DNA of 64,000 nt from Hyphomicrobium sulfonivorans (GTDB lineage Bacteria > Pseudomonadota > Alphaproteobacteria > Rhizobiales > Hyphomicrobiaceae), in the NCBI RefSeq assembly GCF_013306565.1, contig NZ_PZPO01000001.1, positions 620,001-684,000 on the forward strand, written 5' to 3'. The number at the start of each line of letters is the position of its first letter. Position 1 is the first letter of the stretch. Made by a program: the position numbers and the translations under genes. This document shows positions 3,562 through 32,124 of the stretch, piece after piece. Under the pieces are notes generated by a model. It did not search any database and had not been told where the DNA came from. It worked only from the letters and a program-made list of their open reading frames with translations.

Positions 3562-3603
3562 TTGCACCGGCGACTCCGCTGCGCGGAGCCGGCCGCCGGT
3601 GCA
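3562..3603 (+). repeat. Gene-end palindromic element, copy A
   Basis: An imperfect double palindrome 12 nt after the stop of the LpxQ-like gene, in the same orientation. The outer arms are GCACCGGCG (3564-3572) and CGCCGGTGC (3594-3602). The inner hairpin is CTCCG/CGGAG (3574-3588). Between inner hairpin and right arm is the conserved CCGGC-type linker. It is preceded by TTTT. It shares its layout with copies at 11176, 12554, 30336-30480 and 32063. Confidence 0.8.
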
Positions 3604-3617
3604 GGGAAACACTCTGA

Positions 3618-6335
3618 TTAGAAGCGGCGCAGCAGACGCTCGTAATAATCGAGCTCGTCGGTTGGACGGGCGGGCTGCGCTAGGCGACGGCGCAGCTCCT
3701 CGAGGATGGCGCGGGCACGCTGCATGTCGATTTCGTCCGGAACCTTCACCGAGTTGCCAGCATCGGGGCCGTTGAAGCGCTGCGGACGACCCAGCGGATC
3801 GCGTGACTGCTCGCCGTTCTGGCCGTAACGGGCCTGGCCTTCCTTGGCCATGCTTTCAGCCATGCGTTGCGCGCCCTGGCGCATCTGGTCGAGCGCTTCG
3901 GACTGATCCTGGATCGCGGTGTCGTTGCGGCCTTCTTCCAGCGAATTGCGCGCGTTCTCCATCGCCTCGCGCGCCCGGTTGAACTCTTCCGAGCCCGAGC
4001 CCATCGCACCGAGTTCCTGCCCGAGCCGCTCCAGATCCTGCTTCAGCGCTTCCTGCTGGTCGCTCAGGCTGCCGCGCCCCTGCTGCTGGCCCTGTTGGCC
4101 TTGCATGCCCTCACCTTGCATGCCTTGGCCCTGCTCACCGAACTGCTGCTGGCCTTGCGACCCCTGCTGTCCCTGACCTTGACCCTGCTGCCCACCGGGC
4201 TGCTGGCCCGGCTGTTGACCGCGTTGCTGACCTTGCTGCTGGCCGCCCTGCTGCTGACCCTGCTGGCTCTCCTGCCCTTGCTGGCCCTGCTGCTGCTGAC
4301 GGCGATCACCGCGCTTCTCGCGATAGGTCTCATCCATCAGACGCTGCTGACGGCCGATCAGGTCGCCCAGCTCATTCATTTTCTGCTGCATCTGCTGGCC
4401 GCGCTCGGCCTGCTGCTGCGAGCCCTGGCCAGACTGCAAACGCTCAAGCAGATCGCGCAACTGCGCCATCGCCTGCTCGGCCTGCTCGCGCGAGCCGGAT
4501 TTCATCTGCTCCTGCAGATCCTTCAACATCTGCTCCAGATCCTGCTGGCTCAGTTGCTGGTTCTGCTGATCCATGCCTTCCGGCGGAGCCTGGTTCTGTG
4601 CGTTCTTGGTGAGCTGCTCGACATACTTCGACAGCGCCTCGCGCAGCTCCTGCATCAGCTGGTCGATCTCGGAATCCGACGCGCCGTTCTCCAGCGCTTC
4701 GGCCAGCTTATCCTGCGCGTCGCGGAGCTGCTTTTCAGCCTCCGAAAGATCGCCGTCCTCGATGCGCAGCGCCAGATCCCACATGCCGTCGACGACGCTC
4801 TTCAGGCCTTCGCGCGAGGTGTTGCGCTCAAGCCCGCGGCTGGCAGCGCGCAGGCCCAGATAAACGGCGGTTGAATCGATGAAGCCATCGGGTTCAAGCG
4901 TCAGCGCATCGAGCGCTCGCTTGGCCAGCGGTGCATAGCGCGGATCGTCCATCAGCTTGGCGCGCTGCTCAACGACGGCGCGGGCCAGCGGCTTGGTGAA
5001 GGTGCGCTGCGGCAGCACGATCTTCATCGGCACCGCTTTGCCGACATTGCCGGCGACGTCCTTCGCCTCAAGCGTCATGATGACTTCACGACCGGCAAAG
5101 GGATGCGGCGCGAAATCGATGTAGGTCTGCGCTTCCTTCTGCGGCGCGCGCGGCAGGCGCAGCGTTATCTCGGGCGGGCGTTCGTATGGCGGACGCGGGC
5201 CTTTCAAAACCTCGGGCGTAGTCCAGTCGAACTCAGGCCCGCGCGGCTTTGCGTTTTCCGCATCCCGATCGCGCCTCACCTCGGCACCCGCCGAAGCGAC
5301 GCCGTAATCATCCTCGACCGAATAGGTGAGCTTCATCGCGCCACGACGCGTCCGCTCCGGCGCCTTGGTGACGGCGATGACCGGCGGCTTGTCCGGTTTC
5401 ACGTAAAACGCCCAGCGCGCCAGCTCCGAACCGCCCGACAGCACGCGAACTTCAGCCGAGTTCAGCAGCTCATAGCGGATCTCGGAAATGTCGGCGCGCG
5501 CAGCGGTAGACTGTCCGGCCTCCGGCGCCTTGGCTTCGACGAGCTGCTTCTCCGCCGAGCCCTCGGCAAAAACCTCCAGCGACGGCGCGCCGAGCCCTTT
5601 GCCCGATGTGCGCACGATCAGCACGCTGCGCTCCGGCACCTCGACCAGCTTCGGCTGATCATCCGAAGGAGCGGCGGGACCACGGGCGCCATCGGCAAGC
5701 ATGATGGGCGGGCGGGCCGTATAGCCGGGCGGCGCAACCCATGCATCTAGGCGGGCTTCGGCCAGCGCGACAGCGGAATTGAAACGGAATGCGGAGCGCA
5801 GACGGTCCGCCGCGCTGTCACCCACCAATGAGAACAGCGCTACGACGCCAAGGATGAGCAGGCCGCGCAGTGCGATTGGATCCTGACGGTCGGCGCGCGG
5901 TTGCGGCGGCCCAACCTTCAGCCGCGCCAGTGCAGCCGCGAGCCGCGCGCGGTGCGCCTGCCAGATGGCTGCCGTGCGCGGATCGTCGGCATTGGCGGTG
6001 ACGGTATCCTCATAGGACGAGGCCGGCCGGTGCGGCACGCCGGAAACGCGCTCAATGCGGCGCACGGCTTCATCGCGCGGCGGAAACGGCGTGCGCAGAA
6101 TGTGGAACAACGCGCCGACACCGGCGACGCCGAACAGCGCCAGCACGGCATAATGGACGGTGTCGGAAAGCAGCGGCCACAGGCCGGCGAGCGACACCAG
6201 CAGGAACAGGCCGACGAGGCCGAGGATGAGCCAGACGCGCGGCCACAACCGCTCAAAATAGAGCGCCCAGCGGCTGGCGCGGACCTTGCGCGCAAATTTT
6301 GCGTCGACCGGGGAGGCGGCCTTGGTATCCGACAT
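3618..6335 (-). CDS. TIGR02302 family protein, Gln-rich membrane protein
   Basis: A 905-aa protein of the alphaproteobacterial TIGR02302/DUF4175 family, of unknown function. The first about 180 residues hold membrane helices (about 38-56, 60-80 and 160-175). A periplasmic beta-rich middle part follows, then a helical region. A striking low-complexity stretch of Gln and Gly runs at about residues 590-770 (bases about 4020-4570 on the complement). The C-terminus returns to ordinary composition with 'RARAILEELRRRLAQ'. In related genomes this gene lies downstream of lysA, as here (118 nt gap, same strand), so it is probably in the argH-lptM-lysA transcription unit. The repetitive DNA encodes long antisense open frames, which I treat as shadows. 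The family assignment is firm; no biochemical role can be stated. Confidence 0.9.
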   Translation of the reverse strand: MSDTKAASPVDAKFARKVRASRWALYFERLWPRVWLILGLVGLFLLVSLAGLWPLLSDTVHYAVLALFGVAGVGALFHILRTPFPPRDEAVRRIERVSGVPHRPASSYEDTVTANADDPRTAAIWQAHRARLAAALARLKVGPPQPRADRQDPIALRGLLILGVVALFSLVGDSAADRLRSAFRFNSAVALAEARLDAWVAPPGYTARPPIMLADGARGPAAPSDDQPKLVEVPERSVLIVRTSGKGLGAPSLEVFAEGSAEKQLVEAKAPEAGQSTAARADISEIRYELLNSAEVRVLSGGSELARWAFYVKPDKPPVIAVTKAPERTRRGAMKLTYSVEDDYGVASAGAEVRRDRDAENAKPRGPEFDWTTPEVLKGPRPPYERPPEITLRLPRAPQKEAQTYIDFAPHPFAGREVIMTLEAKDVAGNVGKAVPMKIVLPQRTFTKPLARAVVEQRAKLMDDPRYAPLAKRALDALTLEPDGFIDSTAVYLGLRAASRGLERNTSREGLKSVVDGMWDLALRIEDGDLSEAEKQLRDAQDKLAEALENGASDSEIDQLMQELREALSKYVEQLTKNAQNQAPPEGMDQQNQQLSQQDLEQMLKDLQEQMKSGSREQAEQAMAQLRDLLERLQSGQGSQQQAERGQQMQQKMNELGDLIGRQQRLMDETYREKRGDRRQQQQGQQGQESQQGQQQGGQQQGQQRGQQPGQQPGGQQGQGQGQQGSQGQQQFGEQGQGMQGEGMQGQQGQQQGRGSLSDQQEALKQDLERLGQELGAMGSGSEEFNRAREAMENARNSLEEGRNDTAIQDQSEALDQMRQGAQRMAESMAKEGQARYGQNGEQSRDPLGRPQRFNGPDAGNSVKVPDEIDMQRARAILEELRRRLAQPARPTDELDYYERLLRRF

Positions 6336-6453
6336 GGCCTGACGATAGCCGGAACTGCGGCCGTGGCCTAGCGGGCGCGTGCGGCCAGCATGATTAAACT
6401 TTCGTCATTCTGGGGACGACAGGACCGGATGAACTGTGGTCGTCCGTTGCGAT

Positions 6454-7722
6454 TTAACCCAGCCAATCCGGCAGCTTATCCAGCCCGATGAGCTGCTCGA
6501 TGCCGAAGCGCGGGCGCACCACGGCATAGGCATCACCGTGCACCAGAACCTCCGGCACCAGCGGGCGGGTATTGTAGCTGGAGGACATGACGGCACCATA
6601 GGCACCGGCCGTCATAACCGCGATGAGGTCACCGGAAGACAGCGGCGGCAGCTTGCGGTCCAGCGCCAGATAATCGCCGGTCTCGCAAACCGGGCCGACG
6701 ATGTCCTGCACCACCGGCGGCATCGAAAGCTTGTCTTCCTTCACCGGCCAGATCTCGTGCAGCGCCTCATAAAGCGTGGGGCGGATGAGGTCGTTCATGG
6801 CGGCGTCGACAACGGTGAAGGTTTTGTCGACGCCCTCCTTGCAGTAGACCACCTGCGTGACGAGCACGCCCGCATTGCCCGCGATGACCCGGCCCGGTTC
6901 CATCACGATCTTGAGGCCAAGCCCGGCCAGTTCTTCGCGCACGATCTGCGCATACGCCGACGGCGGCGGGGCAACCTCGCCCTCGGACACATACGGCACG
7001 CCGAGGCCGCCGCCGATGTCGAGGTGCTGCAGCTTGTGGCCATCGGCGATGAGTTGCTCGGCCATCTCGCGCATCAGGCGGAACGCGTTGCGGAACGGAT
7101 CGAGCTGCGTGATCTGGCTGCCGATGTGCATGTGGATGCCGGTGGCGGCGATGCCCGGCAGCTTGGCAGCCTCGGCGTAGAGTTCGCGTGCCTGCGCATA
7201 GGGAATGCCGAACTTGTTTTCCGCCTTTCCGGTGGAAATCTTGGCGTGGGTTTTGGCGTCGACATCGGGATTGACGCGCAGCGCGACGTGCGCGGTCTTG
7301 CCTAGCGCTGATGCCACCTCGCTAAGCGCGCGCAGCTCCGGCTCGCTTTCAACGTTGAAGCCGAGGATGCCAGCTTCGAGCGCGAACGCCATCTCGGACC
7401 GCGTTTTGCCGACGCCCGCGAAAATGATACGGGAGGCGGGGACGCCGACGGCGAGCGCGCGGCGCAGTTCGCCCTCGGACACGACATCCATGCCGGCGCC
7501 GAGACGGGCCAGCGTTGCCAGCACCGCCTGATTGGAGTTGGCTTTGACCGCAAAGCAGATGAGCGCGTCCTGACCGGCAAAGGCTTCGGTAAGCACTCGG
7601 TAGTGCCGTTCCAGCGTCGCGGTCGAATAGCAGTAGAACGGCGTGCCCACCTCTTCGGCGATCCGCGCCAGGCTGACGCCCTCGGCATGCAACACGCCGT
7701 CGCGATACTCGAAATGGTGCAT
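6454..7722 (-). CDS. lysA: Diaminopimelate decarboxylase
   Basis: PLP-dependent decarboxylase that converts meso-diaminopimelate to L-lysine, the last step of lysine synthesis, in the cytoplasm. The 422-aa length is normal. The PLP-binding lysine is Lys60 in 'CFAVKANSN'. The phosphate-binding glycines are in 'DIGGGLGVPY', the substrate contact region is 'EPGRVIAGNAG', and the C-terminal Tyr-containing segment is 'SGDLIAVMTAGAYGAVMSS'. The order argH, lptM, lysA, TIGR02302 is common in Hyphomicrobiales. Here a methyltransferase gene on the opposite strand separates lptM from lysA, so lysA must have its own promoter in the interval before 7944 or be read through that gene. It works with dapD and dapE at 13-17 kb in the succinylase branch. 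Confidence 0.97.
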   Translation of the reverse strand: MHHFEYRDGVLHAEGVSLARIAEEVGTPFYCYSTATLERHYRVLTEAFAGQDALICFAVKANSNQAVLATLARLGAGMDVVSEGELRRALAVGVPASRIIFAGVGKTRSEMAFALEAGILGFNVESEPELRALSEVASALGKTAHVALRVNPDVDAKTHAKISTGKAENKFGIPYAQARELYAEAAKLPGIAATGIHMHIGSQITQLDPFRNAFRLMREMAEQLIADGHKLQHLDIGGGLGVPYVSEGEVAPPPSAYAQIVREELAGLGLKIVMEPGRVIAGNAGVLVTQVVYCKEGVDKTFTVVDAAMNDLIRPTLYEALHEIWPVKEDKLSMPPVVQDIVGPVCETGDYLALDRKLPPLSSGDLIAVMTAGAYGAVMSSSYNTRPLVPEVLVHGDAYAVVRPRFGIEQLIGLDKLPDWLG

Positions 7723-7943
7723 GGCTGGATCTCTTGTTATGTAGCGGGCTGCACTAGACCGGGATTGCCTCGAACCTATCAGGGTACGCAGCGTGAATCA
7801 TCGGTCCCATCAAATGGTTAGAGCGGCGTCGCGGCTTGGTTGCACGCGATCGTGCTCTAGGGATTCGTCGCCGCTAATAGCGGCAGACGACGGGAGAATG
7901 CAATGGCGGGACGACGGACAGCGACAGTCGGCGGGCGGATTTG

Positions 7944-8627
7944 ATGCCGATAACGGGTGCCACACAGCCGCCGCCAACCGAAATCGCCGGGGTGCCGCTG
8001 AAGGTTTTCAGCTTCGAGATCGGTGGCCGGACGTGGAACGTCCATGCGGCGGAGGACCATGCATCGCTGCTGGCCGTCTCGGACGATTTCGTGGCGTTTC
8101 CGTTCGGGCTGCTGCTATGGGAAGCCGCCTGCGCGCTTGCCCAGGCGTTGACCGAGGATAAAGACGGCTTTGCGGGGCAGTCGGTGCTGGAGTTGGGCGC
8201 GGGCGTCGGCCTGCCGGGCATCGTCGCCCGTCATCTGGGGGCGGACCCGGTGCGGCAGACGGACCACATCTCCCAGGCGCTGGATCTGTGCCGGTTGAAT
8301 GCGGCGGCGAATGGGGTCAGCGGCATTGAGCTGGCGCTGGCCAACTGGGACGCCTGGAACGATAGCCGGAGCTACGACCTGATCATTGGCTCGGACGTGA
8401 TTTATGAGCGACAGGCCCATGCCCCGCTGGCAGCGATCCTGGAACGCAATCTGGCAGCGGGCGGCCGTGCCCTGTTTGCCGATCCGGGTCGGCAGGATAC
8501 GCCGCTGTTTAGACAGCAGATGATCGAGCGCGGCTGGCAGGTCAGCTCGACCGCCTATCCGGCGCTGTCGATGTTTCCGAGCGGGCCGGAAGTGGTGACT
8601 GTCGATATCATTGAAGTGCGCCGCTAG
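7944..8627 (+). CDS. Class I SAM-dependent methyltransferase (Methyltransf_16-like)
   Basis: A 227-aa Rossmann-fold methyltransferase. Motif I is 'VLELGAGVGLPGIVA' (about residues 79-93) and the post-motif acidic position is 'VRQTDHISQAL'. 'YDLIIGSDVIYE' matches motif IV of the lysine-methyltransferase-like family (PF10294), in which the [D/N]xx[Y/W]-type segment follows strand 4. The substrate is unknown; protein lysine methylation is only a family-level suggestion. TTG at 7941 directly precedes ATG at 7944, and I prefer the ATG. It lies on the + strand between lptM and lysA, both on the - strand, and ends convergent with lptM. This breaks the usual lptM-lysA adjacency and suggests a lineage-specific insertion. 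Confidence 0.78.
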   Translation: MPITGATQPPPTEIAGVPLKVFSFEIGGRTWNVHAAEDHASLLAVSDDFVAFPFGLLLWEAACALAQALTEDKDGFAGQSVLELGAGVGLPGIVARHLGADPVRQTDHISQALDLCRLNAAANGVSGIELALANWDAWNDSRSYDLIIGSDVIYERQAHAPLAAILERNLAAGGRALFADPGRQDTPLFRQQMIERGWQVSSTAYPALSMFPSGPEVVTVDIIEVRR

Positions 8628-8724
8628 AGCCACGGCCAGCTGCGCCGGTCAGGTGACGATCGGCGCGGCAAGGCCGTGCGCAACACGCAAGGCTGAGCGC
8701 AAAAAGCAGCGTTGAAATATAGGT

Positions 8725-8946
8725 TTAGCGCAGCAGAGGGTCGAGCACGAAGCCCTCGTGCGGCTTCTCCGGCGCGACTGACTCTGGCTGGGTACCTGCG
8801 GCTTCAGCCGAGCGGGCTGTGCCGGCAGCGGCGGCTGAAGGCGGCGGATCAAGCGAGCCACGGACACCGCAGCCGCCCAGCCCGAGGCACAGCCCGGCCG
8901 CCAGCAATGCGGCAAGCGTTGCCTTGGGTGTCATCGATACGCGCAT
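8725..8946 (-). CDS. lptM: LPS translocon maturation chaperone LptM-like lipoprotein
   Basis: A 73-aa outer-membrane lipoprotein. The signal peptide ends in 'GLGGC' and mature Cys is followed by 'GVRGSLDPPP', the short motif of the LptM (YifL) family. The C-terminal 'FVLDPLLR' is typical of the alphaproteobacterial forms. In E. coli LptM helps mature the LptD-LptE translocon; the same role here is inferred from family. I place the start at the ATG at 8946, with GGACAGG 8 nt upstream; a GTG at 8964 is also open. It lies 76 bases downstream of argH on the same strand, the usual neighbour, and is likely cotranscribed. The middle is Ala/Pro-rich and probably disordered. Confidence 0.85.
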   Translation of the reverse strand: MRVSMTPKATLAALLAAGLCLGLGGCGVRGSLDPPPSAAAAGTARSAEAAGTQPESVAPEKPHEGFVLDPLLR

Positions 8947-9022
8947 ATCCCCGACCTGTCCCACGCGGAAAGTTCAGCAGCTACGGGCCGCACCGATGGG
9001 GTGCAGCCACGCATTGCCTAAT

Positions 9023-10432: not shown

Positions 10433-10488
10433 GGCGTTTCGAGCTCCGTACAGGCGGCAGACCGATTGGATCGGCATAAGGAAAAAGA

Positions 10489-11163
10489 ATGAGCAAGCGG
10501 CCGCAGAAGAAAAAGCCCGACCACCCCTCGACATACATCTGGGCTGCTGCGCTCTCTGCGCTGGCCGCCTTCGCGGCGGTATACGTCACGTTGGCCGTCT
10601 CTGACAATCAAACGCCTGCGGCTTCTTCGCCCTCAGCAGCGTCAAATTCCGTCACAAACGGGGCTGCCACCGATGCTGCGCCGGACGATAGCGCCAGGGC
10701 GCTCGCTACCGGCAAGATGGCGACATTCGTGTTCAAGAAGACGCCCGCCGACCTGACGGACGTAGCGTTCCTGACGCCGGATGGCGCGACGACCAACCTG
10801 TCCGCATTCAAGGGCAAGGTTGTATTGCTCAATCTGTGGGCCACCTGGTGTGCGCCGTGCCGCGAGGAAATGCCGGCGCTGGACAAGCTGGAGAAAGAGC
10901 TCGGCTCGGACAAATTTCAGGTGGTGGCGCTGTCGATCGACAAATCGGGCGTCGATGGCGCGCGCAAATTCCTGGATGACATCGGCGCAACCAGCCTGAA
11001 GCCCTACGCCGACCCGACTTCGAAGGAAGGCACGCGGCTGGGCGTGATCGGCATGCCGACGACGCTGCTGATCAACGCTGACGGCAAGGAGATCGGGCGC
11101 CTGATCGGCCCGGCTGAATGGGACAGCGCCGACGCGCGCCGCCTGATCGAAAAATTTTTGTAG
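10489..11163 (+). CDS. tlpA: TlpA family thiol:disulfide reductase
   Basis: A membrane-anchored periplasmic thioredoxin-like protein of 224 aa. A basic N-terminus is followed by one transmembrane helix (about residues 17-36), an Ala/Ser linker, and a thioredoxin fold with 'WATWCAPC' (Cys121 and Cys124). The cis-proline is in 'IGMPTTLLI'. TlpA proteins reduce apo-cytochrome c or the Cu-A site of cytochrome oxidase. Divergent pairing with argH is common in this order. A ribosome binding site (AAGGAAAA) lies just before the ATG. The stop is followed by T6 and a palindromic repeat. Confidence 0.93.
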
Positions 11164-11166
11164 GAT

Positions 11167-11216
11167 TTTTTGTTGGGCGTCGGCGACTGCCCTCCGGGCA
11201 GCCGGCCGCCGACGCC
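11167..11216 (+). repeat. Gene-end palindromic element, copy B
   Basis: It follows tlpA in the same orientation after a T-rich stretch (11165-11173). The outer arms are GGCGTCGGCG (11176-11185) and CGCCGACGCC (11207-11216), a fully paired 10-bp stem. The inner hairpin is CTGCCC/GGGCAG (about 11187-11200). Compared with copy A the outer arms differ at several positions, with matching changes on both sides. It forms the left border of the low-GC socAB island. Confidence 0.82.
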
Positions 11217-11304
11217 GGACGAATAGAGTTACATACGGATCAGAATGATCGAAATCTCTGAATGCCCAGTAGAACTAGCCTTCAAAGCAAAGTAAGTCAC
11301 GTCT

Positions 11305-11853
11305 ATGCACGATCCTCGCGCCATCGCCAACATGATCATTGAAGAGGGCCAGCGAACCCAAAAGCTGGTGACGAACCTTGCTCTTCAAAAGCTATTATAT
11401 TTTGCACATGCTCTGTTTTTAGTTGAGCGGAAGCAGCCACTAGTTTCAGGTCATTTCGAGGCATGGAAATATGGCCCTGTGCACCCAACAGCTTATCAAG
11501 CTTTTAGGTCTGCGGGAGATCAACCCATTACATTCCGAGCGACTGCTATCGATGCGCTGACGGGAGAGCGACGCCCTCTACCATCACTCACCGACCAAAT
11601 CATTGCGCGGCACATCGAACGCATTCTGAGCTCCTACGGTGAGCTCTCACCGGGTCGGCTCGTCGATATCTCTCATGCTAAAGGTGCTCCTTGGCACTTC
11701 GTCGTTGAGAGTGCTAAGGCTACGGTTTCGCTAGGCTTACGAATCTCCGATGATGTGATCTTAGAGCGCTTCAAATTCCATAAGGTGAGCGTAGCGGCAG
11801 CACCCCTAGTTGGAGAGCCAGGTGACGACAGCCCCATTCTTGCCCGAGATTGA
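11305..11853 (+). CDS. socA: SocA-like antitoxin (Panacea / DUF4065 domain)
   Basis: A 182-aa protein of the Panacea (DUF4065, GepA-like) family. It shows the family hallmarks 'LQKLLYFAHALFL', 'FEAWKYGPVHP' and 'SHAKGAPWH'. In Caulobacter SocA delivers the toxin SocB to ClpXP for degradation; more widely Panacea domains neutralise varied toxins. The next gene overlaps this one, as expected of an antitoxin-toxin operon with the antitoxin first. Base composition is clearly more AT-rich than the neighbours, with rarer codons such as TTA and ATA, which indicates recent acquisition. Palindromic repeats lie on both sides of the island. The antitoxin role is inferred from family and context. Confidence 0.78.
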   Translation: MHDPRAIANMIIEEGQRTQKLVTNLALQKLLYFAHALFLVERKQPLVSGHFEAWKYGPVHPTAYQAFRSAGDQPITFRATAIDALTGERRPLPSLTDQIIARHIERILSSYGELSPGRLVDISHAKGAPWHFVVESAKATVSLGLRISDDVILERFKFHKVSVAAAPLVGEPGDDSPILARD

Positions 11854-12514
11854 TCTCGCGAATATCGCCCCATTGCCGATTGAAGCGAAATGGAAGGCTT
11901 TGCAAGGATTCAAGCAAGGAAGGCCACCATACTCTTATAAGCCCTTAAGGCAGAGTCTTAGTGATCTTTTGCGCCTTGAGACCCCCCTGTTCGGCGCCCC
12001 TCCAGAGACTTCATTCCAGCAGTTGGCTGCCATAATTAGACGCAACTCAAGATCGACGGCCGAAGCTGAAGCGAATATCCGCGTTGCAGCGAGCATATAT
12101 GCCGCCCGCTGGAAAGGGCGACCTCAGCACTTCCATTCGATGGGTACAACAATCGGCCACCGATTAGAGTATTGGACGCCTGCAGTACTCAATATTGATG
12201 GGCGCGCAGTCGTTCCGTACTTCAATCCTCGCCGAAGTGGTATGTCCCCTCACGCCCGAAGGTTCGTGTTCTCGATGATGCACGAACAGATCAGGAAGCC
12301 CGACCCCGACTACGCTGCCGTTGCGTTCTGCATCAACCATTTTTCATCTCCCAAAAATGGTCCTCGCGAAATGCGAACCACTTTTGATGACGGCGTAGCT
12401 CTATACGAATTCGATGAGCTGCAAGCGATGGTGGCCGAAACTTACTCTATTTGGATAGAAGTTTGGGCGGGCCGAATTGCGGAGGTTAGACGGAGTGGGA
12501 ATGGCGCGCGTTAG
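11822..12514 (+). CDS. socB: SocB-like toxin (DNA replication inhibitor family)
   Basis: A 230-aa protein paired with the Panacea antitoxin. The opening 'FLPEIDLANIAPLP', the middle 'FNPRRSGMSPHARRFVFSMMHEQIR' region (bases about 12222-12300) and the C-terminal 'YEFDELQAMVAETYSIW' fit my recollection of the SocB family, whose Caulobacter member binds the beta sliding clamp DnaN and halts replication forks. I prefer the GTG at 11822, preceded by GGAGAG; a TTG at 11810 is in frame. Either way the 5' end overlaps socA by at least 32 nt, which implies translational coupling. A segment 'SFQQLAAII' could be a clamp-binding peptide but is not a clear consensus. AT-richer than the flanking genes. Another toxin class attached to a Panacea antitoxin is the alternative. 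Confidence 0.62.
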   Translation: MTTAPFLPEIDLANIAPLPIEAKWKALQGFKQGRPPYSYKPLRQSLSDLLRLETPLFGAPPETSFQQLAAIIRRNSRSTAEAEANIRVAASIYAARWKGRPQHFHSMGTTIGHRLEYWTPAVLNIDGRAVVPYFNPRRSGMSPHARRFVFSMMHEQIRKPDPDYAAVAFCINHFSSPKNGPREMRTTFDDGVALYEFDELQAMVAETYSIWIEVWAGRIAEVRRSGNGAR

Positions 12515-12553
12515 GCGCATCAGGTCACCTTCGATAGATGCAGCCCATAAACT

Positions 12554-12592
12554 GCGCTGGCGGCCGGCTGCCCGCAGGGCAGTCGCCAGCGC
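12554..12592 (-). repeat. Gene-end palindromic element, copy C
   Basis: It begins at the base after the stop codon of the leftward coiled-coil gene (12593-13195) and has the orientation of that gene. The outer arms are GCGCTGGCG (12554-12562) and CGCCAGCGC (12584-12592); the inner hairpin is CTGCCC/GGGCAG (12568-12582). The outer stem differs from copies A and B by compensatory changes. It is the right border of the socAB island and is inverted relative to copy B. Confidence 0.82.
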
Positions 12593-13195
12593 CTAAATAA
12601 AGAATCTGGAGGCGAGGGCGAGCGCGGCGAGCGCGAGGGCGCCGAGGAACAGCGCTTCGTTGCGGCGGGCGGCATGCTCGACGCGATCGATGTGCAGCTT
12701 CAGCCCGCCCAGCTCCGCCAGCTTGCGGTCCATGTCGACGAACGACTTGTAGGTGATGTTCGGATAGGCCTTGCGGTCGCCTTCCATGCGCTCGACACGC
12801 GTTTTCAGATCGCGACCTGAGCGCTGCAGCTCGGAAATTTTGTAATTGCGGGAATTTTCCAGGCTCTGGTCGAAAGCGGCCAGCCGATGACTGCGGTGCA
12901 CCTCTTCCGTCATCTCGGCAATGGTGGCGCGCGCCTTCTCCAGCTCACGCTCAAGCCGGGCGACGGTGCCATTGATCCGGTCGAACTGCACGGCCGCTTC
13001 GGCGACGAAGCCCTCGTGCGCAATCCACTTTCCACTGGCCTTGCCACCCGTATGGGCAGCAGTGACCGATACAATCCGCTCGCTCTGCAACACGACCCAA
13101 CCCCTTGGTACGTCTCTTTTCCCGGCACCGATTGGGGTATTATCCGGCGTGAGATTTAATGGGACGTATCCAATTGATGCAAAAAACGAAACCAT
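12593..13195 (-). CDS. Coiled-coil protein with C-terminal membrane anchor, function unknown
   Basis: A 200-aa protein I do not recognise. About residues 70-180 are charged and helical with heptad-like spacing ('RINGTVARLERELEKARATI', 'LKTRVERMEGD'), suggesting a coiled coil. The last about 18 residues ('ALFLGALALAALALASRFFI') form a single transmembrane helix, so it looks tail-anchored with the coiled coil in the cytoplasm. The N-terminal 50 residues are of ordinary globular composition. The start at 13195 is the first ATG; a later start is possible. It diverges from dapD with 74 bases between. Its stop codon touches palindromic copy C. No enzymatic motif is seen. Confidence 0.6.
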   Translation of the reverse strand: MVSFFASIGYVPLNLTPDNTPIGAGKRDVPRGWVVLQSERIVSVTAAHTGGKASGKWIAHEGFVAEAAVQFDRINGTVARLERELEKARATIAEMTEEVHRSHRLAAFDQSLENSRNYKISELQRSGRDLKTRVERMEGDRKAYPNITYKSFVDMDRKLAELGGLKLHIDRVEHAARRNEALFLGALALAALALASRFFI

Positions 13196-24968: not shown

Positions 24969-25042
24969 GGAGACGCTACCTTATCTTCCGGCCATTGACC
25001 TATTCGCAGAAGCAGGGCGCAGCAGCGATCAGGCCAATGACG

Positions 25043-25723: not shown

Positions 25724-25772
25724 AGGTCATAATCCTTCCGCCTCCGATGAGGCTTTGCATCGACAAAATCAA

Positions 25773-26684
25773 TCAGGCGAAAAGCAGCGAAGAAAGCCTC
25801 CGGCGTCCTTCGATTGCCGCGGGGTCTTTGAAGCCCCAGGCCTCGAAAAATTGCACGAGCTGTTTGCGCGCGGCCTCATCGTTCCATTTCCGGTCACGAC
25901 GCACAAGTTCAAGCAGATGCTCGACTGCATCGGCCTTCTTGTTCTGTGCGGCCAGCGCCACCGCGAGATCGAAACGCGCCTGATGATCGGCGGGATTGGC
26001 CTCGACGCGCTGCACCAGCACACCGAGCTCACCGGAATCGCCAGCCTTGCGAGCCAGCTCCAGCGCTGCCTTCACCTGCTGCACGGCGGGAATGGAAGCT
26101 TCGGCCTGTGGCACCAGAGCGATCATCTGATCGGCGCGATCGATGTCGCCTGTCTGCAGATAGCAGCGCGCCAGACCGGCCAGCGCAGTGGCGTTGTCCT
26201 TATGCTGCTGCAGCACCGCCGCATAGATTTCAGCCGCCGCCTGCACATCGCCTTCCTCAAGCGTCTGCTCGGCCGTCGCGAGAATGGTGGCGATGTCGGC
26301 TTCCTCGTCGGCGCCAAGCAAGCGCTCAACAAATGCTTTGACGGCGCTTTCCGGCTGGGCGCCCATGAACCCATCCAGCGGGCGGCCATCGCGGAACGCA
26401 TAGACCGTCGGCAGGGACTGAACGCGGAGCTGACCGGCGATGCCGGGATGCTCATCGACGTTCACCTTCACCAGCCGCACCTTGCCGTTGTAGCTGCGAA
26501 CAACTTTCTCAAGGATCGGGGTGAGCTGCTTGCAGGGCCCGCACCAGGACGCCCAGAAGTCGACAATGACCGGAACGCTGCGCGATGCCTCAAGCACGTC
26601 CTTGGCAAAAGTCGCCGTGGTTGAATCTTTGATGATGTCAGCACCACCGCCGCCTGCGGCCGATGCCGTCAAATCAAATTCCAT
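25773..26684 (-). CDS. CnoX/YbbN-type thioredoxin with tetratricopeptide repeats
   Basis: A 303-aa cytoplasmic co-chaperone. The thioredoxin domain (about residues 15-125) has 'WASWCGPC' (Cys48 and Cys51) and the cis-proline in 'QSLPTVYAF'. The C-terminal half is TPR-like helices ending in the conserved 'RKQLVQFFEAWG'. E. coli CnoX protects substrates from oxidation and hands them to GroEL; the CGPC form here should be redox-active. The ATG at 26684 has a strong GAGGAG 10 nt upstream; an upstream in-frame start at 26738 lacks that support. It leads the thioredoxin-LON-Trm112 set. Confidence 0.92.
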   Translation of the reverse strand: MEFDLTASAAGGGGADIIKDSTTATFAKDVLEASRSVPVIVDFWASWCGPCKQLTPILEKVVRSYNGKVRLVKVNVDEHPGIAGQLRVQSLPTVYAFRDGRPLDGFMGAQPESAVKAFVERLLGADEEADIATILATAEQTLEEGDVQAAAEIYAAVLQQHKDNATALAGLARCYLQTGDIDRADQMIALVPQAEASIPAVQQVKAALELARKAGDSGELGVLVQRVEANPADHQARFDLAVALAAQNKKADAVEHLLELVRRDRKWNDEAARKQLVQFFEAWGFKDPAAIEGRRRLSSLLFA

Positions 26685-26871
26685 ACTTTGTTTCTCCTCG
26701 CGGCGCGTCAGTAAGCCTGTCACCAGTGCGCAACTCAATACAAAAACTTCACCAGCGGCTCAATTCCACATGGCGGCCAGCCCCGGAACTAAGCCCCAGA
26801 TCGTCATGCACCGCTTCTGTTACAAGCGGCACCGTTTCTCTCAGCTGCCAATGCTGTCCAGCCAAGCCATC

Positions 26872-27417
26872 TCACGGCGGCGGGCGATCTTCCACCCGGC
26901 TCAACGTCTCAATCGTCAACTGGTGCCCACCGGCACGTATGAAGCGCAGCAGATCTTCGCGGGCAATGCTGGTGGTGGCAGTGTTTTCCAGCGGATGACA
27001 GTTGATGGTGTCATGCGCCATCAAGGCGGCGTCGATTATCACGCGGACCCTGAGCGCATCATCGTTCATCACCGCGAATGCCGTGACCGAGCCAGGCGTG
27101 ACGCCCAGCACCTCAAGCAGCAGCTCCGGCTTGCCGAAACTGAAGCGACCAGCTCCGAATTGCCGTGACAATCCCTTCAGATCGACTTTTGTCGTCGATT
27201 GAGCGACCACCAGAAACAGCGCGCCCTTGTCGTCCTTGAGGAACAGATTTTTGGTGTGTGCGCCGGACAGCTCGCGCTCCAGATCAGCGCTGTCAGCCAC
27301 CGTGAACAGCGGCCGATGCTCAACCGTGACGGTCTCGATGCCGAGCTCGGCCAGCCGCTCAAACAACTTCTGGCGGGAAGCGGGCTGTATGATTGTGACT
27401 GCTGCTGGATCGGTCAT
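26872..27417 (-). CDS. Prolyl-tRNA editing protein, ProX/YbaK family
   Basis: A 181-aa trans-editing deacylase that hydrolyses mischarged aminoacyl-tRNAs, in ProX-type enzymes mainly Ala-tRNAPro. The hallmarks are 'THKNLF'-like 'AHTKNLFLKDDKGALFLVV', the catalytic-loop Lys in 'TKVDLKGLSRQ', and 'GVTPGSVTAFAVMND'. The C-terminus has 'HPLENTATTSIAREDLLRFI', as in ProX proteins. I start at ATG 27417; the frame stays open to 27459. It lies on its own, upstream of the thioredoxin gene with 187 bases between. Confidence 0.9.
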   Translation of the reverse strand: MTDPAAVTIIQPASRQKLFERLAELGIETVTVEHRPLFTVADSADLERELSGAHTKNLFLKDDKGALFLVVAQSTTKVDLKGLSRQFGAGRFSFGKPELLLEVLGVTPGSVTAFAVMNDDALRVRVIIDAALMAHDTINCHPLENTATTSIAREDLLRFIRAGGHQLTIETLSRVEDRPPP

Positions 27418-27674
27418 GGATTGTCGAGGCCAGGGCGATGGATCTGAAGCAATTGGCAAAGCGATGCGGCAGTATATAGGCCCAGCATTTGCATATTAGA
27501 GGTGAAGAGCGCGCCACTGCTGCGCCGCAGATAACGCGTAGCTCGCCCTTACGCCGCCAAACCATCCTGCAAACTCAACGCCCTGGCCAATCCGGTTAGC
27601 ATAGTGTTGAGCGATGTCTTGATACGGGACTGAGCCGGCCCTAGCATCCGCCTGCCCTGAATGCAGGAAACCCG

Positions 27675-28091
27675 ATGCGCCGAAGTGCCCTTCTATCCAT
27701 CCCGATAACCGTTGCCGCCACGCTGGGCTTTGTCGCGTTCGGATCAGCGCCTCTCGCGGGGACTGAGGAGCGTTGGGCGGCATTTGCGCCGAATCTGGAA
27801 AATTCCGCCCAGGTCGTCTGGGGGGCAACCCAAGACGAAGCCAAGGAAAAAGCGGCCAGCTCCTGTCGTGCCTCATCCGCGACTTGCGCCGCCAAGCCAG
27901 CCAACACCAACGGGCTTGGGCACGTCTTCGCCCTGATGTGCTGCACCGCGCCGCAACAGGGCTGCGCGGCAACCGTGGGCGAAACCCGTCAGATCGCCCT
28001 GCACGAAGTGAAGCGTTTGTTTGCCGATGCGGGCTATAGCCAGTGCCGCCTGCAGGGTTATTTCAGCGCCGCCACCGGCCAAAAGGGCTGA
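27675..28091 (+). CDS. Exported cysteine-rich protein, DUF4189-like
   Basis: A 138-aa secreted protein with a signal peptide (about residues 1-28). The mature part begins 'RWAAFAPNLENSAQVVWGATQDEAKEKAASSC', with bases about 27770-27870, the pattern of DUF4189 (a W/A-rich strand followed by EA..A..C). Seven cysteines, including an adjacent pair in 'ALMCCTAP', suggest disulfides in the periplasm. Function unknown. Preceded by 257 bases without another gene and followed by tRNA-Gly. Confidence 0.6.
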   Translation: MRRSALLSIPITVAATLGFVAFGSAPLAGTEERWAAFAPNLENSAQVVWGATQDEAKEKAASSCRASSATCAAKPANTNGLGHVFALMCCTAPQQGCAATVGETRQIALHEVKRLFADAGYSQCRLQGYFSAATGQKG

Positions 28092-28218
28092 AAATAGGCC
28101 AAAATTGCATCGGGCGATCCGGTCGCACCCGGTGTTGTTGAAGACGCTTGCAAAGCCCGCGGAGTTGCGCCATAACGCGGCCTCCGCTGCACTTCGCGGC
28201 GTTGATACCCAAATGGAA

Positions 28219-28293
28219 GCGGGCGTAGCTCAGGGGTAGAGCATTACCTTGCCAAGGTAAGGGTCGTGAGTTCGAATCTCATCGCCCGCTCCA
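28219..28293 (+). tRNA. tRNA-Gly (GCC)
   Basis: A complete cloverleaf of 75 nt with encoded CCA. The acceptor stem GCGGGCG pairs with CGCCCGC. The D stem is GCTC/GAGC, the anticodon stem TTACC/GGTAA has loop TTGCCAA with anticodon GCC at 28251-28253, and the T loop is TTCGAAT. Confidence 0.97.
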
Positions 28294-28603
28294 ATTAACT
28301 CACTGCACAAGCTGGTTTAAATCGCGACGGGACACCCCGGCGATTGCCGGCCTGCGCGTGAGTTCTGATGTGCGCCGAGTGTGCGCCCGTGCCTGAGATT
28401 TGCTGCCTCAACGCAGCGGCTGCTGAACCTCTACGAACTTGAGCCTGCTTTTGAATGCTGGCATTCCCAGCGCGCCGCGCTTGCCTGATGCCGCCGTGCT
28501 GGGCGCACCCCTGCACGCTCTATCTGCTGTGCCGAGGGTGCCGCGCGCCGCTTTGGCTTTTCTTGACAAGATTCGGCGCGACATCCTAAATCCGCCAACG
28601 ACC
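28294..28603. other. Intergenic region between two tRNA genes, no gene seen
   Basis: 310 bases between tRNA-Gly and tRNA-Ala. Open frames here are short and lack family features. 'CTTGACAAG' at about 28562-28570, 34 bases before the tRNA-Ala, contains a TTGACA -35 box and could belong to its promoter. Nothing else is recognised. Confidence 0.6.
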
Positions 28604-28679
28604 GGGGCCGTAGCTCAGATGGGAGAGCGCTGCAATCGCACTGCAGAGGTCAGGGGTTCGATTCCCCTCGGCTCCACCA
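28604..28679 (+). tRNA. tRNA-Ala (CGC)
   Basis: A 76-nt cloverleaf with encoded CCA. The acceptor GGGGCCG pairs with CGGCTCC and includes the G3:U70 wobble that specifies alanine, with discriminator A73. The anticodon stem is CTGCA/TGCAG, loop ATCGCAC, anticodon CGC at 28637-28639, reading GCG codons. The T loop is TTCGATT. Confidence 0.95.
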
Positions 28680-28900
28680 ACTTTATTTGCGCTTAGCCGC
28701 CACGCCAACCCTGCGCGCGTTTTTCTCTCTCAGCTCACGCGCCTGAAGGCGCTCCGCATATGGGCGGCGCTAATAAGCGCTTAGGTCGCCTTGCGAGCTG
28801 AGCCCTACGGGCTGATTTTCAAACGCTCCGGCGGCCACATCGCAGCCATACGTGTTCTTCAATACCTCCGCCCCTGAATGAATGGTGCGGAGCTTGCACA

Positions 28901-29710
28901 ATGGTTCTGTCCGATCGGGCGATTGTCTATCTGCATGGCTTTCCCGGCGGGCCATCGGAGCTGCAGCTATTCGGCCGTCCGCCCGCGGCGCTAAACGGCA
29001 CGTTCGCGCCCGATCGCGCGAACGACAGACCAGACCTCGACGCCGTGGCCTACGCCGATGATCTCGCCGGCCGCGTGCAGGCCTATGCCGACAACCGGCC
29101 GGTGCACCTGATCGGATTTTCGCTCGGCGCCAGAACCGCGCTGGAATTGGCGGGCCGCATCGGGCCGGAAGTGGCGCAGATCGATTTGATCTCGCCGGCC
29201 GGTCCGCTGGATGGCAGCGACCACATCAACGCGATGGCGGGCCGGGCGATATTCAGCATGGCGGCGGCGCGCCCGAAGCTGTTTCGGCTGCACAGCGCCA
29301 TGCAGGGCTGGTTCGCCCGCCGCTGTCCGGGCCTGCTGTATCGCGCGTTGTTCGCCGATGGGTCTGAAAGCATGGCCCGGAATGCAGAATTCCGTCGCAC
29401 GATGGAAGGCATTCTGAAACAATGCTTTGCGAACGGTAGCGCCGGCTATCGGCGCGAAATTCTGGCCTATGTGGGACCGTGGTCGAGCCTGCCGACACGG
29501 GTCAAGACGCCAACAATCATCTGGCAGGGCGGCCGCGACAGCTGGACACCGCCGATAATGTCGGAGCGGCTGGCGACGCTGCTGCCGAATGCAGAGCGTC
29601 ATCTGCTGCCCGAGCTTGGCCACTACGGCGCGCTGCAACATGCCCTGCATGCGATCTGCGACCAACGGCAGTTACAGATCCCACGATCGCCGCATGATCA
29701 CTCTCGATAA
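28901..29710 (+). CDS. Alpha/beta fold hydrolase
   Basis: A 269-aa cytoplasmic hydrolase. The oxyanion strand is 'IVYLHGFPGGPSE', the nucleophile Ser is in 'LIGFSLGART', the acid is probably Asp in 'IIWQGGRDSWTP', and the base His is in 'LPELGHYGAL'. A helical cap lies between about residues 110 and 185. The substrate is unknown. No signal peptide. It stands alone between tRNA-Ala and a small hypothetical gene. Confidence 0.85.
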   Translation: MVLSDRAIVYLHGFPGGPSELQLFGRPPAALNGTFAPDRANDRPDLDAVAYADDLAGRVQAYADNRPVHLIGFSLGARTALELAGRIGPEVAQIDLISPAGPLDGSDHINAMAGRAIFSMAAARPKLFRLHSAMQGWFARRCPGLLYRALFADGSESMARNAEFRRTMEGILKQCFANGSAGYRREILAYVGPWSSLPTRVKTPTIIWQGGRDSWTPPIMSERLATLLPNAERHLLPELGHYGALQHALHAICDQRQLQIPRSPHDHSR

Positions 29711-29917
29711 TTCCGCCCGGCATGTGCAGGCCGGCGCGGGCGCCTGAAAACGGTTGATGTGATCGTCTCCAACCTCCACTGACAACCCGGCGCGCCCCAA
29801 AAGTCACTTTCACACGGATTTGCAGTGCGTTACGTCGATTCCTACCGATCTTGCGGTGTACTGGCGCTGGAAAGCCGCTAAACTGCCGCCGGGGAACGTC
29901 AGGCGCGGAGGGGCGGG

Positions 29918-30325
29918 ATGGCAGGCAATATCGATGCAGTTATCGCTGCTTTGCGCGTGGTGCTGGACGCCGCCGAGGAAAGCGATGAGCCGTTCGTGAA
30001 GGTTGAAGCGGCCAACCGCTGGATCAAGCAACTTCCCGGCACCTGGACCGGCCGCTGGCGCAAGCTGATGCTGAAGGGCGATGGCTCGGGCGATGCGCGC
30101 CGCGACGAGTTCGTGGGTCATGTGCGCGCCGTGCTGGCCTTCCTTGAATCGAACAGCAAGGAAACACCTGCGACGCGCAAGTGGTGGTCTCTGCGTCGCC
30201 GAAGCGGACAGCAGCAGCCGGCAGCGCCCGTCGCAGCACAGGCCGCAGCGGCTGCGGCAAAGCCCGTAAAGGCGCGCCCAGTGAACCTGCTGCGCGTACG
30301 CAAGCCGATGCCCGGCGTGCACTGA
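29918..30325 (+). CDS. Hypothetical protein with basic, Ala-rich tail
   Basis: A 135-aa protein I do not recognise. The first about 85 residues look helical and globular ('MAGNIDAVIAALRVVLDAAEES', 'WTGRWRKLMLKGD'). The rest is rich in Ala, Gln, Pro, Lys and Arg and probably disordered, ending 'LLRVRKPMPGVH'. GGAGGGG lies right before the ATG, supporting translation. The stop is followed by T7 and three tandem palindromic repeats. No signal peptide or membrane segment. A basic tail could contact nucleic acid, but this is only a composition-based guess. Confidence 0.55.
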   Translation: MAGNIDAVIAALRVVLDAAEESDEPFVKVEAANRWIKQLPGTWTGRWRKLMLKGDGSGDARRDEFVGHVRAVLAFLESNSKETPATRKWWSLRRRSGQQQPAAPVAAQAAAAAAKPVKARPVNLLRVRKPMPGVH

Positions 30326-30330
30326 ATACT

Positions 30331-30480
30331 TTTTTTGCACCGGCAACACCCCTTCGGGGAGCTGGCCACAGGTGAGGGTCCTTTCGCACGGGCGACACCC
30401 CTCCGGGGAAGTTGGCCGCCGGCCGCCGGTGAGGGTCTTTTTACACCGGCGACTCTCCTCCGGGAAGCAGGCCGCCGGTG
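30331..30480 (+). repeat. Cluster of three gene-end palindromic elements, copies D1-D3
   Basis: Three degenerate copies in tandem after the stop of the 29918 gene, all in its orientation. D1 (30336-30374) follows T7 and has CACCGGC, inner CCCC/GGGG and right arm ending CAGGTG. D2 (30387-30433) has inner CCCC/GGGG and a duplicated GGCCGCC. D3 (30442-30480) follows T5, with CACCGGCG and CGCCGGTG as perfect outer arms. Each is preceded by a T-tract (TTTTTTT, CTTTC, CTTTTT). Bases 30481-30741 beyond it hold no gene. Confidence 0.75.
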
Positions 30481-30741
30481 AAATAGATAAATAATCTGCA
30501 TTCTGATTAAATCATCGCCATCGACTTCATCGTAGAATTGCCATGGCGCAGCACTTGTCTGCGGCATGCGACTGCATACGTCAAAGATGCGCGGGTCGGC
30601 TGCCCTTGCCTGTGATCTGGTCGACCTCGACCGCACACGTTACTGGAAGCGCTCACAGCATCCATCGGGCCGCAAAATTGCGGCGAACGCAGCCATAGCA
30701 ACGGGACGCTTCCTCAGATCCGAACTCGGAGGATGGCACTC

Positions 30742-31947
30742 ATGGCGAAGATACTCACCGTACTTTATCCTGATCCCGTCGACGGGCAGCCGAAGTCCTA
30801 TGCCCGCGACGACATCCCAAAGCTCGATCACTATCCCGGCGGGCAGACACTGCCGACGCCGAAGAAAATCGACTTCAAGCCCGGCGAATTGCTCGGCAGC
30901 GTTTCAGGCGAACTTGGCCTGCGCAAATTTCTCGAGGATCAGGGCCACACGTTTATTGTGACCTCGGACAAGGATGGCCCGAATTCGGTTTTTGAAAAGG
31001 AACTGCCCGACGCCGATATCGTGATCTCGCAACCGTTCTGGCCTGCGTATCTCACCGAGGAGCGGCTGAAGAAAGCGAAGAAGCTTAAGCTGGCGATTAC
31101 AGCAGGCATCGGATCGGATCATGTCGATCTGGACGCCGCGATGAAGAACGGCGTTACCGTTGCGGAGGTGACGTACTCGAACTCGATCAGCGTCGCCGAG
31201 CATGTGGTGATGATGATCCTGTCGCTCGTGCGCAATTATCTTCCGTCGTATGAATGGGTGAAGAAGGGCGGCTGGAATATCGCCGACTGCGTGGAGCGCT
31301 CATACGATCTGGAAGGCATGAACGTCGGCACGGTGGGCGCAGGGCGCATCGGATTGGCAGTTCTGCGTCGCCTGAAACCTTTTGACGTGAAGCTGCACTA
31401 TACCGACCGGCATCGCCTGCCTAAGGAAGTCGAGAAAGAACTTGGTCTGATCTATCACAAGGACGTCGAGTCGCTTGTGAAAGTTTGCGATGTGGTGACA
31501 ATCAACGCGCCGCTGCATTCGGAAACCGAGCATCTGTTCGACGCCAAGATGATCTCGAAGATGAAGCACGGCGCATACCTCATCAACACGGCGCGGGCGA
31601 AAATCGTTGACCGTGACGCGGTGGTGAAGGCGCTGGAAAGCGGACAGCTTGCTGGATACGCGGGCGATGTCTGGTTCCCGCAGCCCGCGCCAAAGGATCA
31701 TCCGTGGCGGAAGATGCCGCATCACGGCATGACGCCCCACATCTCCGGCACGTCGCTTTCGGCGCAGGCACGCTACGCCGCCGGCACCCGCGAAATTCTG
31801 GAGAACTACTTCGCGGGCAAACCGATCCGGACCGAGTATCTGATCGTCGACAAGGGCAAGCTTGCCGGAACGGGCGCGCATTCCTACAGCGGTGGCGATG
31901 CGACGAAGGGCGTTGACGAGCCGATCAAGTATCGCAAGAGCGCGTGA
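30742..31947 (+). CDS. fdh: NAD-dependent formate dehydrogenase
   Basis: Oxidises formate to CO2 with NAD+ reduction; a metal-free homodimer of the D-2-hydroxyacid dehydrogenase superfamily. The 401-aa length is that of Pseudomonas sp. 101 FDH. The coenzyme motif is 'GTVGAGRIGLAVLRRL', and Asp222 in 'YTDRHRLP' marks NAD+ over NADP+ preference. The active site has the Asn in 'TYSNSISVAEH', Arg in 'NTARAKIVD' and His in 'MTPHISGT'. The characteristic ending 'AGTGAHSYSGGDATKG' is present. I start at ATG 30742, with GGAGG 9 nt upstream; the ATG at 30733 overlaps that box. No molybdenum-type formate dehydrogenase genes are adjacent. It gives energy or detoxification from formate. Confidence 0.97.
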   Translation: MAKILTVLYPDPVDGQPKSYARDDIPKLDHYPGGQTLPTPKKIDFKPGELLGSVSGELGLRKFLEDQGHTFIVTSDKDGPNSVFEKELPDADIVISQPFWPAYLTEERLKKAKKLKLAITAGIGSDHVDLDAAMKNGVTVAEVTYSNSISVAEHVVMMILSLVRNYLPSYEWVKKGGWNIADCVERSYDLEGMNVGTVGAGRIGLAVLRRLKPFDVKLHYTDRHRLPKEVEKELGLIYHKDVESLVKVCDVVTINAPLHSETEHLFDAKMISKMKHGAYLINTARAKIVDRDAVVKALESGQLAGYAGDVWFPQPAPKDHPWRKMPHHGMTPHISGTSLSAQARYAAGTREILENYFAGKPIRTEYLIVDKGKLAGTGAHSYSGGDATKGVDEPIKYRKSA

Positions 31948-31987
31948 TAGCGGCTGACGTGACTTGATACCTTGGTGCGATAAAAAC

Positions 31988-32023
31988 AGGCGGTGCTGCT
32001 CCAACAGGGCGGCCCGCCTTTTT
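31988..32023 (+). terminator. Rho-independent terminator after fdh
   Basis: Arms AGGCGG (31988-31993) and CCGCCT (32014-32019), with further GC-rich pairing inside, followed by TTTTATTTT. It lies 41 nt after the fdh stop on the same strand. Confidence 0.65.
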
Positions 32024-32033
32024 ATTTTGGTTT

Positions 32034-32124
32034 GCACCGGCGGCTTGCTTCATCCCAACCATGCACCGGCGGCCGGCTGCCCGAAGGGCAGTCGCCGGTG
32101 CAAAAGGGAGGGAGCCGCCGGTGC
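32034..32124 (-). repeat. Gene-end palindromic element, copy E, nested in outer arms
   Basis: The core is 32063-32101 with arms GCACCGGCG and CGCCGGTGC and inner hairpin CTGCCC/GGGCAG (32077-32091). Read on the - strand it follows the GMC oxidoreductase stop (32129) in the same orientation, preceded by CTTTTG. A second pair of half-arms, GCACCGGCGG at 32034-32043 and CCGCCGGTGC at 32115-32124, encloses the core, so the whole 91-bp unit is a nested palindrome. Confidence 0.8.

Follow-up and report, generated by a model that had tools for sequence, protein, structure and literature searches.

Probable T-tagged, REP-like DNA hairpins at gene ends in Hyphomicrobium sulfonivorans, with one-strand polarity in three genomes of a sister genus

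The closest described counterparts of the repeats discussed here are the two known superfamilies of repetitive extragenic palindromic (REP) elements. In the sections of PMC3733652 and PMC6006769 that deal with them, the GTAG-tagged REPs, which go with REP-associated tyrosine transposases (RAYT), are short, multi-copy, extragenic palindromes that carry an unpaired motif at one foot and lie mostly in convergent or tandem gaps; the CGTC-tagged REPs of alphaproteobacteria are extragenic, mostly head-to-head dimers with stems of 8-9 bp and loops of 4-5 bases, for which, according to the section of PMC3733652 that describes them, no dedicated transposase is known. We have analysed a family of hairpin elements from a 64-kb stretch of the Hyphomicrobium sulfonivorans genome (the window: the whole stretch, positions 620001-684000 of contig C6 in a host genome of 3,551,730 bases). 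Like the GTAG-tagged REPs, these elements are short, multi-copy and extragenic, carry an unpaired foot motif and occupy convergent and tandem gaps; unlike them, they bear a T-rich tag and a free arm next to a near-invariant neck, their neighbours stand head-to-tail, and the host lacks the Y1_Tnp domain of the REP-associated TnpA. With the CGTC-tagged REPs they share an alphaproteobacterial host, an extragenic habit and the want of a known dedicated transposase, and differ in the size of stem and loop, in their head-to-tail neighbours and in the rarity of CGTC. We consider it probable that they are REP-like, T-tagged, non-autonomous DNA-hairpin elements placed by some polar process, whatever its kind. 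An incomplete literature search of open-licence papers returned no title on such repeats in Hyphomicrobium.

The unit measures about 49-58 bp and has a constant order. A T-rich stretch at positions -15 to -11 is separated by two variable bases from TTG; then come a free arm (usually 5-6 pairs) and a near-invariant GGCG. A single unpaired A leads into the inner hairpin, six pairs closed by a 3-base loop, after which CCGGC and CGCC precede the matching arm. The unpaired A faces CCGGC, the neck GGCG/CGCC is near-invariant as a pair, and the tag reads approximately TTTTTGNTTG. T stands at each of positions -15 to -11, -8 and -7 in 0.49-0.90 of the copies of three sets (90 from the host genome, 102 from four genomes of the sister genus, here g10, and 145 from named loci), and since its spacing is equal in all three, the tag belongs to the element. 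TTTT occurs upstream of the core in 41/90, 50/102 and 57/145 copies and downstream in 11/90, 6/102 and 13/145. The first-pass annotation of the window had argued from a T-tract 5' of the hairpin that these are not ordinary terminators, and this holds: an intrinsic terminator is rejected, its T-run being on the wrong side. In the g10 genome G060, two copies also adjoin a terminator-like hairpin (by eye).

All seven copies reported in the first pass are present in the window, and four of them are good copies, scoring 63.3 to 72.7 bits with R1, a covariance model that we built from 30 host-genome copies; three window copies are exact matches to a 29-base core pattern, which has no match in 100 shuffles. 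The features are as follows.

3549..3605, plus strand: element copy with arms GCACC/GGTGC and inner stem CTCCGC/GCGGAG (R1 63.3 bits, fold z -2.96), in a convergent gap, 11 nt past a plus-strand gene.
11162..11218, plus strand: element copy with arms GGCGTC/GACGCC and inner stem CTGCCC/GGGCAG (R1 72.7 bits, fold z -4.30); a TlpA-like gene ends 12 nt before it and a SocA-family gene comes next on the same strand.
12551..12607, minus strand: element copy with arms GCGCT/AGCGC (R1 65.0 bits, fold z -2.41), adjoining the stop of the minus-strand open reading frame (ORF) 12593-13195.
30322..30378, plus strand: decayed element copy, first in a head-to-tail triplet (R1 22.8 bits, fold z -0.54).
30391..30427, plus strand: variant core, second in the triplet (core pattern match, no R1 match, fold z +0.61).
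30432..30484, plus strand: element copy, third in the triplet (R1 38.4 bits, fold z -3.35).
32034..32044, plus strand: left outer arm GCACCGGCGGC of a larger palindrome around the copy at 32060, a perfect complement of 32114-32124.
32060..32116, minus strand: element copy with arms GCACC/GGTGC (R1 63.6 bits, fold z -3.60), flanked by a formate dehydrogenase gene (plus) and an oxidoreductase-like gene (minus).
32114..32124, plus strand: right outer arm GCCGCCGGTGC of the larger palindrome around the copy at 32060.

The triplet at 30322-30484 consists of three poorer copies, two of which fold no better than shuffles, and in its variant second member extra bases separate the inner hairpin from the right arm. 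At 32034-32124 the 11-bp arm pair surrounds the minus-strand copy, and R1 also gives a weak plus-strand match there (32019-32104, 22 bits), as if one copy were nested inside another palindromic copy. Rfam at gathering score gave no match in the window besides four tRNA.

Neighbours at most 200 bp apart share their orientation in 40 of 46 host pairs and 26 of 31 pairs in the g10 genome G045, often at a spacing of 48-58 bp; the head-to-head dimers of REPs are thus not the arrangement seen here, and one G060 site has a truncated sense half followed by a full antisense copy. Some copies at four host loci (L001, L006, L024, L026) have in common a longer downstream extension starting GATTGGTGCG, which suggests a composite element. 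Across g10 a few inner hairpins recur at unrelated sites, such as TCGCGTTCCGCGA in 20/102 copies, and orthologous copies may share their arms yet have different inner hairpins (G060 2575572 and G045 1788571). A second repeat, CGTCATCCTCGGC...GGGGATCCAGCG, which is like a CGTC-tagged REP, adjoins some copies (L213 near 604.6-605 kb, and G045 sites); its 13 matches in total (2/2, 0/1, 2/6) are too few for polarity.

The compensatory stem changes proposed in the first pass are borne out by covariation scores far above those of shuffles. The 30 host copies scored 0.488 (0.157 when shuffled, at most 0.164 with slid partners), with 94.0% of stem cells paired and two-sided changes in 91 cells (32.1 when shuffled), although neither pair counts nor pair-type counts exceeded the shuffles in this set (88/500 and 79/500 shuffles reach them). 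In structure-fitted alignments, 125 host matches scored 0.486 against 0.152 with 393 both-side changes against 146, and 95 G045 matches 0.576 against 0.135 with 340 against 100.

The first pass had put forward a 3'-untranslated region (UTR) RNA element; such a hairpin would protect or process mRNA 3' ends. A helix maintained as RNA accommodates G.U much more readily than A.C. In the element stems G.T does not exceed A.C (17 vs 23 in G045, 50 vs 55 in the host, 67 vs 78 together), whereas 34 distinct tRNAs of the fetched loci gave 28 G.U vs 3 A.C (Fisher p 5e-6 against the elements), a control that leans to few A.C, as its pairs were assigned by position and ARAGORN prefers paired stems. With the outermost pair and the T-A/A.C pair left out, the elements counted 47 G.T vs 48 A.C (Fisher p 4e-5). 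Given no wobble excess over A.C, the helices resemble palindromes of DNA that either selection on the folded strand maintains or a process acting on DNA renews. The strong hairpin, the many copies 0-20 nt past stop codons, the avoidance of divergent gaps in the host and some sense bias there (15:6 tandem gaps, 3 mixed) would suit an RNA element; against it speak, besides the wobble counts, the tandem gaps of G045 (3 sense, 16 antisense, 3 mixed), separate terminator-like hairpins beside copies at two sites (by eye), and an orientation that tracked the chromosome across an inverted block, as described below. We therefore regard a 3'-UTR function as unlikely.

The placement of the family at gene ends could be confirmed, and its supposed orientation with the upstream gene could not. 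Context was read in fetched stretches for 113 of 136 host copies (the 142 R1 matches minus the six weakest, mostly partial) and 94 of 111 G045 copies, some G045 stretches having been picked for elements and others not; gap types are approximate, the genes having been called with a small custom script, which overlooked one or more real genes, among them the SocA-family gene of the window. In the host, 111/113 copies are intergenic: 72 convergent, 23 tandem sense, 12 tandem antisense, 1 divergent and 3 with a neighbour outside the stretch. Among host gaps of at least 60 bp, copies occupy 41/97 convergent, 24/295 tandem and 1/115 divergent ones (convergent vs divergent, p 1e-15). In G045, 86/94 copies are intergenic (34 convergent, 29 tandem antisense, 11 divergent, 8 tandem sense, 4 open), with 22/71 convergent, 22/254 tandem and 8/105 divergent gaps occupied, so that divergent gaps are avoided less strongly than in the host. 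A convergent gap always offers a gene pointing the element's way, as at 3/5 window sites (4/5 by the script's gene calls, which miss the SocA gene), and only tandem gaps are therefore informative. Counted as gaps, these are sense, antisense or mixed in 15/6/3 cases in the host, a weak tendency, and in 3/16/3 in G045, the opposite; counted as copies, they give 23 sense vs 12 antisense (p 0.09) and 8 vs 29. Copies seek or survive at gene ends without taking their orientation from the gene; with respect to genes the host comes close to no orientation bias at all, while its relatives are biased, more strongly, to the chromosome instead. Host and G045 copies at the same gene ends allowed eight comparisons (five gaps), with 13 ends occupied in the host only and 19 in G045 only.

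The core, GGCGAC-hairpin-GCCGGCCGCC, has 104 matches in the 3.55 Mb host genome (61 forward, 43 reverse; 0 with the reversed control), one of which, C7:102930, has no hairpin, and R1 at E 0.01 has 142. A loose pattern matches 87/103 genomes of the family, many matches being without hairpin and controls often matching too; at least 11 such matches occur in genomes of genera g1, g6, g9, g10, g14, g19, g20, g21 and g23 and of the host genus. At the level of the order, the fixed-length core matches 55/397 genomes, 13 inside the family and 42 outside, and the latter have 1-2 matches each, with a hairpin (by eye) only in that of G140; multi-copy carriers are confined to the host's family among these 397 genomes. 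A tight core pattern was run against 84,980 species genomes, and among the 97 matches listed about 70 are named Hyphomicrobium or Hyphomicrobiaceae, the remainder being unnamed Proteobacteria, Alphaproteobacteria, Rhizobiales and Hyphomicrobiales bins.

The first pass had also pointed to a REP-like repeat and to a REP-associated TnpA gene. The REP-like habit stands (short, dispersed, extragenic, at gene ends), while a REP tag and a transposase were not found: GTAG lies close to the 5' foot in 1/90, 0/102 and 0/145 copies and shortly past the arm in 8/90, 5/102 and 4/145, CGTC on either side in 1/90, 1/102 and 6/145, and the Pfam Y1_Tnp domain has no match in the host, in 0/8 genomes of its genus (host included), in 1/22 g10 genomes and in 14/103 genomes of the family. 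A RAYT is thereby excluded as the agent in the host. It might be argued that these are classical REPs whose RAYT has since been lost from the genome, as their similar size, extragenic habit and imperfect hairpin would allow, and four carriers (G079, G095, G096, G049) do have a Y1_Tnp match; yet GTAG is all but missing from the 5' foot, neighbours stand head-to-tail instead of head-to-head, and Y1_Tnp is absent from G000 and G036 (Hyphomicrobium sp. D-2), the two genomes richest in core matches, which makes a lost RAYT decidedly unlikely. Identity with integron attC sites is thought unlikely as well, the copies being dispersed; no integrase search was made.

In three g10 genomes the elements keep to nearly one strand round the whole chromosome, which lies outside standard accounts of bacterial repeats. 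Arm borders were set with parS-like sites (one mismatch allowed) as origin and the terminus from skew in G045, G060, G040 and the host, and with both from skew in G043. The 111 matches of G045 extend from 3 kb to 4.01 Mb on a contig of 4,056,580 bases, 101 minus and 10 plus; as clusters they are 69 minus, 4 plus and 2 ties (n=75, p 2e-16), the minus:plus ratio being 29:2 in the arm that lies right of the parS-like site and, for the other arm, 40:2. G060, one 4.6 Mb contig, has 26 plus, 1 minus and 1 tied cluster (n=28; arms 18:0 and 8:1), and G043 has 19 plus, 1 minus and 1 tie (n=21; arms 12:0 and 7:1 among the matches listed), in agreement with its fetched stretches (25 plus, 1 minus, not counting two plus matches and one minus match that score lower). 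H. facile DSM 1565 (G042, g10) is mostly plus on four contigs and minus on one, each contig being read in its own orientation, and G036 is mixed (29 forward, 43 reverse).

Both arms having the same strand, replichore-linked insertion is ruled out in G045, G060 and G043; nor is there a replichore link in the host, where 38 clusters lie on the G-rich strand, 43 on the C-rich strand and 6 are tied or unplaced. Polar chromosome motifs such as the FtsK-orienting polar sequences (KOPS) or Chi are strand-biased too and flip at the origin and terminus, which the elements of these three genomes do not. The KOPS-like GGGNAGGG itself switches strand between arms in G045 (30/8 vs 8/33) and G060 (14/4 vs 4/12), without a clear switch in G043 (9/7 vs 13/0) and G040 (10/1 vs 7/7). 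A whole-arm inversion of an ancestor is a possible, though not a favoured, cause of the uniform strand. Block distances to the origin are partly kept: three host C6 blocks lie at 74-81, 428-441 and 523-530 kb in the host and at 95-104, 411-428 and about 602-609 kb in G045, other blocks having shifted (540 vs 888 kb in G045) or, in one case, changed arm. In-place flipping inside arms is not favoured either, because the side of the core that bears the T tag does not change.

In four g10 genomes (G040, G043, G045, G060; loci L158-L229, L270-L289, L296-L315) GC skew is present in one arm only: -0.002/-0.047 in G045, -0.004/+0.069 in G043, +0.040/-0.007 in G060 and +0.052/+0.005 in G040. AT skew is likewise confined to one arm in G040, G045 and G060, but not in G043. 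Most elements all round lie on whichever strand is G-rich in the skewed arm in 4/4 genomes, which share ancestry and are not independent; the pattern for G060 was written down before its skew was computed. In the host, skew of both signs occurs on either side of the parS-like sites: -0.032 and, with only 80 kb to measure, +0.044. A link between skew and element polarity is suggestive, two lineages only being concerned.

G060 and G045 are collinear in sampled stretches, and G043 has inverted blocks relative to both. In the block at 603-616 kb in G043 and 2985-2999 kb in G045, gene strands are equal in both contigs and the backbones opposite; the copies are 8 plus and 0 minus in G043 and 2 plus and 6 minus in G045 (p 0.007, or 0.015 if a partial minus match of 19.5 bits in G043 is counted), and one gene end there bears a sense copy in G043 and an antisense one in G060. 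A second inverted block has one plus copy in G043 and two minus in G045. Between the host and G045, three of five shared gaps agree in orientation, one is opposite (host C6:600253) and one mixed. As copies follow the chromosome across the inverted block and not the genes, the elements have been re-oriented following one or more g10 inversions, with chromosome polarity kept. The same facts, namely one strand through both arms in three genomes, polarity kept across inversion and a one-armed skew of matching sign in 4/4, might describe a polar chromosome-maintenance site for a one-way process, placed by selection and not by transposition. The host and G036 are without polarity, however, and in G045 and G060 the flipping KOPS-like motif implies that ordinary segregation polarity is kept; such a site is in our view highly improbable.

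Between two element copies of the window (11305-12514) lie a SocA-family antitoxin gene at 11305-11853 (NCBIfam NF047745, 254.9 bits, cut-off 190) and, after it, a 234-aa ORF, possibly a candidate type VI toxin-antitoxin pair. Two nearby tRNA matches lie at 34057-34190, the second of which (34137-34190) spans only model positions 10-63.

Taken as a whole, the first-pass interpretation is partly supported. Under the reading of a T-tagged, non-autonomous DNA-hairpin family, the hairpin would act, or be recognised and copied, as folded DNA by a putative enzyme, which most likely recognises the T tag together with the mismatched neck and copies or moves units; with Y1_Tnp absent from the host and 21/22 g10 genomes, it would there be an enzyme other than Y1_Tnp. 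Gene ends would be tolerated targets, copies surviving where they are least harmful, after stops and chiefly between convergent genes, and in g10 copying or retention may be coupled to a process that proceeds around the chromosome in a single direction. Several points weigh against this reading. No mobilising enzyme was found. Five one-sided gaps between G060 and G045 offered no clean empty site (four aligned, none cleanly), and no target-site duplications were seen in the aligned ones, so that movement is inferred from the nested copy, the tandem units and the differences between lineages. Many copies occur in only 2/8 genomes of the host genus, G000 and G036. Polarity is weaker in G044 (clusters 20 plus, 6 minus, 1 tie, n=27, p 0.009) and G040 (21 plus, 8 minus, 1 tie, n=30, p 0.02), the remaining g10 genomes, seen as totals over contigs, include several mixed ones, and host contigs are without significant strand bias. 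Wobbles could disappear even from a hairpin acting as RNA if template switching repairs the palindrome, and selection could maintain a DNA hairpin as an immobile binding site.

It is tempting to speculate that a regular one-directional process covers the full circle of the g10 chromosome beside bidirectional replication, an idea that we hold as possible though doubtful. Bacteria of the Hyphomicrobium facile type bud and pass their chromosome through a hypha, and a round of unidirectional or rolling-circle replication, or a polar single-strand transfer, would be candidates. Unidirectional replication in part of the cycles might yield one flat and one skewed arm with segregation signals still flipping; if true, the process would skew one arm while the skew of the other is cancelled, and would dictate everywhere on which strand the elements lie. 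One-directional compositional polarity is shown for unidirectionally replicating chromids, which are secondary replicons, in a survey of 77 replicons whose main text is without mention of Hyphomicrobium (PMC7858055); unlike those chromids, the present contigs measure 3.4-4.6 Mb and are skewed in one arm only.

The family would add a T-tagged, transposase-less, REP-like kind to the two known REP superfamilies, and the counts of G.T against A.C provide a simple test for separating DNA hairpins from RNA hairpins. Finally, a one-strand repeat together with a one-armed skew makes an unusual mode of replication or transfer in budding bacteria testable by sequencing coverage.

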